Of a stretch of DNA of 64,000 bases, positions 4,428-4,598 are shown in pieces. Within the stretch, counting starts at the first letter, position 1. Each line of letters begins with the position of its first letter. Under the pieces are notes generated by a model, which did no database searches, had not been told where the DNA came from, and saw only the letters and a list, made by a program, of their open reading frames with translations. This DNA comes from Solidesulfovibrio carbinolicus (lineage in GTDB: Bacteria > Desulfobacterota > Desulfovibrionia > Desulfovibrionales > Desulfovibrionaceae): NCBI RefSeq assembly GCF_004135975.1, contig NZ_CP026538.1, positions 2,666,001 through 2,730,000 on the forward strand, read 5' to 3'. The position numbers and the translations under genes are program-made.

Positions 4428-4598
4428 ATGAACGATATCCTGATCTTTTGCGCCGTGCTCGTCGGCTGGTTCGTGGTGGTCCGCTTCGTCTTTCCCAGGC
4501 TCGGCATCCGGGGCTGAGGCATCGACACGGGGTGCGGTCCGCGCCCCGGCAAGCCTTCTTCTGCTCCAGGCGACAAGGAAGATCGGCCTAAAAGCTGA
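4428..4598 (+). CDS. Candidate small membrane selenoprotein (UGA = Sec30)
   Basis: Read conventionally this is a 29-residue ORF, one hydrophobic helix (residues 4-22, 'ILIFCAVLVGWFVVVRFVF') followed by 'PRLGIRG' and a TGA at 4515-4517. If the TGA is read as selenocysteine the frame continues to a TGA at 4596 and gives 56 residues, with Sec30 followed by 'GIDTGC', so Sec and Cys36 form a UxxxxxC pair, and a polar tail rich in P, S, D and K. A bacterial SECIS-like hairpin sits at the expected distance after the UGA. The last 11 bases overlap the convergent OMP gene. I recall short 'one helix plus LGxxxC...C' proteins in deltaproteobacteria, but cannot confirm homology here. It could still be a plain 29-residue peptide. 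Confidence 0.6.
4515..4548 (+). promoter_or_regulatory. SECIS-like element immediately after in-frame UGA
   Basis: The UGA at 4515-4517 is followed by an 8-bp stem: C4528 pairs with G4548, and GGGGUGC (4529-4535) pairs with GCGCCCC (4541-4547), closing the 5-base loop GGUCC. Eighteen bases separate the UGA from the loop GGU. As I recall the Escherichia coli fdhF SECIS, it has the same 18-base spacing and a GGUCU loop contacted by SelB. The stem also lies inside coding sequence, as bacterial SECIS elements do. Confidence 0.6.

Follow-up and report, generated by a model that had tools for sequence, protein, structure and literature searches.

A predicted single-pass membrane selenoprotein of Solidesulfovibrio carbinolicus and its relatives across bacterial phyla

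The window, a 64,000-nucleotide stretch of Solidesulfovibrio carbinolicus contig NZ_CP026538.1, includes a short gene in which the UGA at position 4515 almost certainly encodes selenocysteine (Sec); the support for this assignment is about as good as sequence can give. The gene belongs to a selenoprotein family that spans many bacterial phyla, a scope that the sequence-only reading of this DNA had underestimated. The explanation that we consider probable as a whole is that the product is a membrane selenoprotein, that its Sec and a nearby Cys would undergo redox cycling through thioredoxin, and that an FmdB protein would be its partner in many lineages.

The reading frame (Table 1) consists of 29 sense codons beginning with the ATG at 4428-4430, the UGA at 4515-4517, 26 further sense codons and a TGA at 4596-4598, and the translation of 4428-4598 (+) is MNDILIFCAVLVGWFVVVRFVFPRLGIRG-U-GIDTGCGPRPGKPSSAPGDKEDRPKS. 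The sequence-only reading had described a 29-residue one-helix open reading frame that ends at UGA and continues for 26 codons, and this is what the DNA contains: there is one hydrophobic stretch, of about 20 residues, and it lies ahead of the UGA. The proposed UxxxxxC pair is also present, with the Cys36 codon at 4533-4535 and five residues in between, as is the 18-base distance from the UGA to a GGU, which begins at 4536; the E. coli fdhF SECIS has the same UGA-to-GGU spacing. The hairpin, claimed to have 8 bp, was scored here as 9 bp (4528-4536 paired with 4540-4548) with a GUC loop. No promoter-like site was found upstream of the gene, no Shine-Dalgarno sequence was seen by eye, and Rfam gave no match near the gene above the gathering threshold. 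The immediate neighbors, both on the opposite strand, are a sigma-54-type regulator and an outer-membrane-protein-like ORF (identities assigned by eye); a convergent ORF on the − strand ends at 4588 and overlaps the last 11 nucleotides of the selenoprotein gene.

Table 1. Features of the selenoprotein gene, in window coordinates
Feature	Coordinates	Strand	Basis
Whole gene, 56-residue predicted membrane selenoprotein via UGA readthrough, TGA stop included	4428..4598	+	
Single transmembrane helix, about residues 4-22	4437..4493	+	Placed by eye on hydrophobic stretch
Juxtamembrane signature FPRLGIRG ahead of Sec; family form [LF]P[KR][LMF]G[VI]xx	4491..4514	+	65-row alignment
In-frame UGA, read as selenocysteine 30	4515..4517	+	TGA in 138/139 homologues
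Bacterial SECIS-type hairpin, 9 bp, GUC apical loop at 4537-4539, 19 nt past UGA	4528..4548	+	
Cys36, presumed resolving thiol partner of Sec30	4533..4535	+	Cys spacing across 240 members
Hydrophilic C-terminal tail	4536..4595	+	Length and sequence variable in family

The distribution of positive charge across 240 members of the family (mean K+R of 0.22 over residues 1-4, 2.08 over the 11 residues preceding U and 4.79 beyond U) suggests by the positive-inside rule that the N-terminus is probably outside and the tail inside. Since the positive charge follows the helix, the Sec/Cys pair should face the cytoplasm.

Relatives of the gene and their distribution

A six-frame search of 149 genomes of the taxonomic family, in which stops were read through and counted, gave matches at E ≤ 0.1 in 78 genomes; the genomes without a match include 51 that the listing does not name. 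A single TGA at the same place is a feature of the strongest matches, and the weaker ones are mixed and were not used as they stand. Among the matches listed are nine same-genus genomes, including that of S. carbinolicus itself, and in all of them a single in-frame TGA is flanked by protein similarity on either side. Loci of 29 relatives were retrieved after this search, two of them (L024 and L030) without the motif, and the readable matches were assembled into a 24-row alignment in which M1, P23, G26, the Sec site and the Cys never vary; P23 and G26 are also invariant in a 65-row alignment. At E 0.001 the profile made from the 24 rows matched 147 of 348 genomes in the class, and at E 0.01 it matched 176 of 395 genomes in a draw from the phylum; these matches were sampled, part of them being retrieved as loci. 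Loci L002-L189 yielded 139 distinct proteins with a median of 51 residues, in which the UGA site is TGA in 138, a Cys codon in one and TAA or TAG in none. The profile searches count stops of any kind, and because the kind of stop was left free the count of 138 is not biased to TGA. The true stops of the 139 genes are TGA in 50, TAA in 49 and TAG in 40.

To these was added a DNA pattern, [K/R][YFW][IV][LF]PK[LMF]G[VI]xx-UGA, that was run on the named genome collection with TGA required and found at least 117 stretches. Against a profile from which they had been left out, 116 of those listed proved to be members (worst E 9e-13); L228 (profile E 0.0017) was rejected as a chance pattern match. The listed matches include Solidesulfovibrio aerotolerans, Desulfacinum, Malonomonas rubra, Geomonas, Pelotalea chapellei and Thermodesulfatator, as well as metagenome bins assigned to Acidobacteria, candidate division KSB1, Zixiibacteriota, LCP-89, KSB3, Calditrichaeota, Neomarinimicrobiota, Spirochaetes, Planctomycetota, Armatimonadetes, Verrucomicrobiia, Chloroflexi and Caulobacteraceae, a list of phyla that is soft because single bins may be contaminated. 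In a draw of Acidobacteriota, the phylum of the Acidobacteriaceae genome that carries L235 (G740), 50 of 199 genomes had a match, G848 (discussed below) being included among the 50. A search of plasmid and phage collections with one Geomonas-type relative as query gave 3 and 2 weak partial matches, respectively, none of them real. The counts exclude L024 and L030 (no motif), L091 and L107 (chance level), L228, L109 (a region of 100-base filler) and repeats of identical proteins.

The median length is 52 residues (241 proteins) and the median Sec position is 30 (240 distinct Sec members). The homologues with UGA or Cys at residue 30 that the sequence-only reading proposed to look for do exist, most of them with a Cys 3-7 residues farther on. 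The number of residues from U to the next Cys is 3 in 5 of the Sec members, 4 in 127, 5 in 52, 6 in 29 and 7 in 5, so that the next Cys lies in this range in 218 of 240; it lies at 8-24 in 14, and 8 have no Cys after U. L104, L105 and L106, from one genus, have two tandem paralogues each, the first with U...C and the second, in which U is followed by no Cys, with UMPRPPDVWE or UMPQPPDVWE. Three Acidobacteriota loci (L322, L323 and L324) read ...LPRLGV[PS]TUAVP with no near Cys. The members L092-L099, from one genus, also lack a near Cys and have tails of the GGCGG type (GGCGS in L099); most of these loci have an adjacent FmdB gene, and the tails are similar to the C-terminal end of its product.

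The family appears to be uncatalogued, judged from the tables, models and literature compared, where a mention may have gone unseen. Among 65 members the best NCBIfam (June 2026) value was E 0.01, with 12 models each touched by 1-4 members, and the best Pfam value was E 0.0056, to PF04602, which 15 members touched over the helix; the S. carbinolicus protein reached 10 bits against a cut-off of 25 for this model. The PDB gave no match (best E 0.69). As far as names and motifs are given (some entries have no motif), Table 1 of PMC13188914, a 2026 compilation of 119 families and subfamilies, has no such entry.

The hairpin downstream of the UGA

The rules for bacterial SECIS elements (bSECIS) in the available text of PMC13188914 are a loop of 3-9 nt, a stem of 4-16 bp, a G in the first two loop bases, a distance of 16-37 nt from the UGA and a free energy of −7.5 kcal/mol or lower. 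The S. carbinolicus hairpin, at −16.6 kcal/mol and with a loop that begins 19 nt past the UGA, falls within this geometry. The 46 nt from the UGA onward fold at −23.3 kcal/mol (z −2.41), and 3 of 200 shuffles were as good.

The family was scored for perfect stems only, with a loop of 3-9 nt, a G among its first two bases, at least 4 pairs and 16-37 nt from the UGA, and the controls were 252 TGA stops of ORFs of at least 250 residues from the same loci, with equal G+C content (54%). A hairpin with a G[GU] loop at −4 kcal/mol or lower was found in 124 of 138 members vs. 28 of 252 controls, and at −7.5 kcal/mol or lower in 81 of 138 vs. 6 of 252. The UGA-to-loop spacing is 16-26 nt in the family, while in the controls it is spread over 16-37. 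Of 102 further members found by the DNA pattern, which is blind to the hairpin, 74 passed, 50 of them at −7.5 kcal/mol; thus 14 of 138 and 28 of 102 members failed the hairpin criteria.

Pairing was also compared among 25 sequences of like geometry, taken from 47 with U-x5-C. In these, standard pairs fill 87% of the pair cells, vs. 37-54% after a shift of one arm by 1-3 columns. Both bases of the pair are changed in 23 cells vs. a shuffle mean of 8.6, with 0 of 500 shuffles as high, a count that leans towards structure because sequences with the loop elsewhere were excluded. Folding z-scores of 45-nt windows past the UGA have a mean of −0.98, with 15% under −2, and six other 45-nt windows have means of +0.22 to −0.55, with 3-15% under −2. 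Such generic z-scores discriminate little, and hairpins were therefore scored by the published geometry, alongside matched controls; it is the geometry, and not the generic folding z, that discriminates. A CGW(T/K)PP stretch past Sec is frequent among members (e.g. L027, L134 and L148) and falls on the TGG in the loop of the hairpin, and for this reason the Trp of CGW may serve the RNA and not the protein.

Selenocysteine at the UGA

Two forms with Cys in place of Sec were seen, L090 and L313, both without a passing hairpin. The L313 form, MRWVLPAMGIGTCMSGACKVP, comes from a genome (G940) that lacks a SelA match as well as any SelB above the cut-off, and the genome of L090 has SelB. At about 1460-1900 of L313 the Cys form sits between a frame ending GSCPAYQLFGISTCSSSKGH and a frame that by eye resembles what we take to be an LmbE-type deacetylase. 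Two other candidates were taken as chance: FPRMGISGCGCSGC in G848 (L321), where the frame has no helix, and IFPVLGIISC in G821 (L325), which lies inside a longer ORF.

The S. carbinolicus genome includes matches to SelA (606 bits) and tRNA-Sec (83.3 bits). In the draw from its phylum SelA was matched in 359 of 395 genomes and not in 36, and since it is so common there its co-occurrence with the family says little; the Acidobacteriota draw was used for this reason. There SelA exceeded the cut-off in 44 of 50 carriers vs. 85 of 149 other genomes (Fisher p 6e-5), and of five carriers without a SelA match three (G799, G832 and G857) had SelB over the cut-off. Within the home phylum SelB was sought in three carriers among 20 genomes listed without a SelA match (G352, G415 and G512), in one with a weak SelA (G557), and in G036 and G065, and all six had a match, five over the cut-off and that of G512 in pieces. 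Among 28 carrier genomes reached by way of named records, SelB exceeded the cut-off in 22, and the 6 below it are all metagenome bins. One carrier, G880, has neither SelA nor SelB over the cut-off, and the same is true of G940, which has the Cys form.

The conserved UGA, the hairpin, the Cys forms and the SelA and tRNA-Sec of the genome itself support the proposal that this is a selenoprotein. Neither of the two outcomes named in the sequence-only reading as contrary to it was found: UAA or UAG stops in homologues occur in 0 of 139, and the hairpin is kept in 124 of 138. Its features also go beyond chance, as the nine same-genus genomes listed and 138 of 139 relatives keep the in-frame TGA. 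If the UGA were an ordinary stop, as annotation rules read it, the gene would encode a 29-residue membrane peptide, which is probably also made when Sec insertion fails, and the hairpin would be a terminator or due to chance. This is very improbable: residues past the UGA are conserved in frame across the family, TAA and TAG are absent from the site while Cys occupies it in two forms, the hairpin shows compensatory pairs, and there is no terminator-like site on the + strand at its position. That the UGA is read as another residue, by tryptophan insertion or near-cognate readthrough, is consistent with the open frame and with nothing beyond it, and is scarcely credible given that the two stop-free forms have Cys and not Trp, that this gene itself, like 50 of the 139, terminates at a TGA, and that the hairpin and the Sec machinery are present.

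Gene neighbors and possible function

Neighbors were surveyed at 202 distinct loci, where the zone within 500 nt represents 0.20 of 1.69 Mb and the other flanks 1.49 Mb; the counts are of sequence motifs, so that diverged copies are missed, and related lineages are not independent. An FmdB motif was found within 500 nt at 40 of the 202 loci, always on the same strand (downstream at 25 of them, upstream at 15), and once elsewhere. One example matches PF09723 (Zn_ribbon_8) at E 3.9e-16. Such neighbors would be rare by chance, since there are only 1 to 12 FmdB matches per genome (46 genomes). A thioredoxin motif occurs within 500 nt on the same strand at 8 of 202 loci and once further away. At L193, from a Pirellulales bin, a thioredoxin domain (PF00085, E 2.7e-32) follows the Sec/Cys segment in the same open frame; this frame has internal start codons and comes from one assembly, whose genome is without SelB over the cut-off, and the fusion is best regarded as a lead. 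The gene at 4428-4598 has no FmdB, thioredoxin or DUF6132 gene adjoining.

DUF6132 (PF19628), a very small membrane protein whose motif is of the GCxSGxCP type, is found within 500 nt at nine loci and at two elsewhere. The nine (L191, L209, L224, L226, L238, L244, L248, L250 and L260) are mostly from KSB1 bins and mostly also have FmdB.

We propose that 4428-4598 would give rise to a 56-residue single-pass inner-membrane selenoprotein, in which SelB and tRNA-Sec, guided by the hairpin at 4528-4548, insert Sec at UGA 4515. Placed directly beneath the membrane on its cytoplasmic side, the Sec30...Cys36 pair would cycle between selenol/thiol and selenenylsulfide with thioredoxin as the reductant, and its electrons would be used on a target at the membrane or close to it; a small zinc-ribbon protein of the FmdB type may act in the same step in many lineages. 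A thioredoxin-linked redox function is the best fit to the neighbors, and has in our estimate about an even chance of being correct.

Alternatively, Sec and Cys could bind a metal or metalloid, such as zinc passed to or from FmdB, mercury or arsenic, with no redox cycling, an unlikely reading that must still be taken seriously. The FmdB zinc ribbon is the commonest short-range neighbor, and in the available text of PMC13188914 binding is predicted for about 20% of selenoprotein families, with metals accounting for about 70% of these. However, the thioredoxin neighbors and the one same-frame thioredoxin favor redox chemistry, and no metal-resistance family is evident by eye among the recurrent neighbors, most of which are without annotation. 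The protein might instead be a thioredoxin-dependent scavenger of peroxides or lipid peroxides at the membrane, with a stripped-down PrxQ-like site. U-x4-C, the commonest form (127 of 240), has the spacing of the peroxidatic and resolving Cys of PrxQ/BCP, and one of 65 members touches the PrxQ model; the match is weak (E 0.021), the rest of the peroxiredoxin site is not evident, and about 50 residues are too few for the peroxiredoxin fold, which makes this role rather improbable. The window protein differs from PrxQ/BCP peroxiredoxins in having a membrane helix instead of a thioredoxin fold, and with this single match it does not fall within the PrxQ type.

Returning to the thioredoxin-linked redox function, a broader version can be put forward tentatively, at somewhat less than even likelihood: the family would be an uncatalogued, nearly Sec-obligate membrane selenoprotein, old and widespread in bacterial thiol redox, in which thioredoxin charges the inner-face Sec/Cys pair, and this acts with FmdB (in the KSB1 type also with DUF6132) on a membrane or zinc-thiolate target. 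The step would require Sec and not Cys, and for that reason lineages losing Sec would mostly lose the gene.

The architecture resembles that of SELENOK and SELENOS, small single-pass membrane proteins of eukaryotes with Sec in a cytosolic tail. The likeness is by architecture only: in these proteins Sec is near the C-terminus and the SECIS is in the 3' UTR, whereas in the window protein Sec is in the middle. With the bSECIS selenoproteins, as far as the available text of PMC13188914 describes them, the family shares the in-frame UGA, a G[G/U]-loop hairpin 16-37 nt on, the Sec machinery and Cys counterparts; by name or motif (some have none) no listed family consists of single-helix proteins about 50 residues long with U(x4-6)C, and in the present family Cys counterparts, of which 2 were seen, are very rare. 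According to PMC12013277, Cys homologues now seem to exist for every known selenoprotein, and deep-Sep, a current search program that relies on this, may miss families without them. The present family is of the kind that Cys-homologue filters would drop, because it is widely matched yet only two Cys forms were seen. It may also serve as a minimal natural Sec protein for study.

Sec has been linked with the FmdB family in a GOS study (PMC2398784, available in part), in which FmdB proteins contain Sec; here FmdB is the neighbor and keeps Cys in the copies inspected, and Sec is in the partner. No role for FmdB, a common family, was found in the literature searched, and through the selenoprotein family it gains a neighbor and a candidate partner.

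Recurrent neighbors also include purC (identified by Pfam) and rpsF-rpsR-rplI-dnaB, fabI and hisD (by eye), which were rejected as functional neighbors since they look like synteny within one order. CcdA-type genes, at 14 loci, and TlpA-like genes are a weaker hint of redox function. CcdA-type and TlpA-like genes are found downstream on the opposite strand at L150, L165, L166, L171, L185, L195, L236, L251, L253, L257, L264 and L271, and several of the CcdA/TlpA loci are from Geobacter, Pelobacter, Pelotalea and Trichlorobacter.
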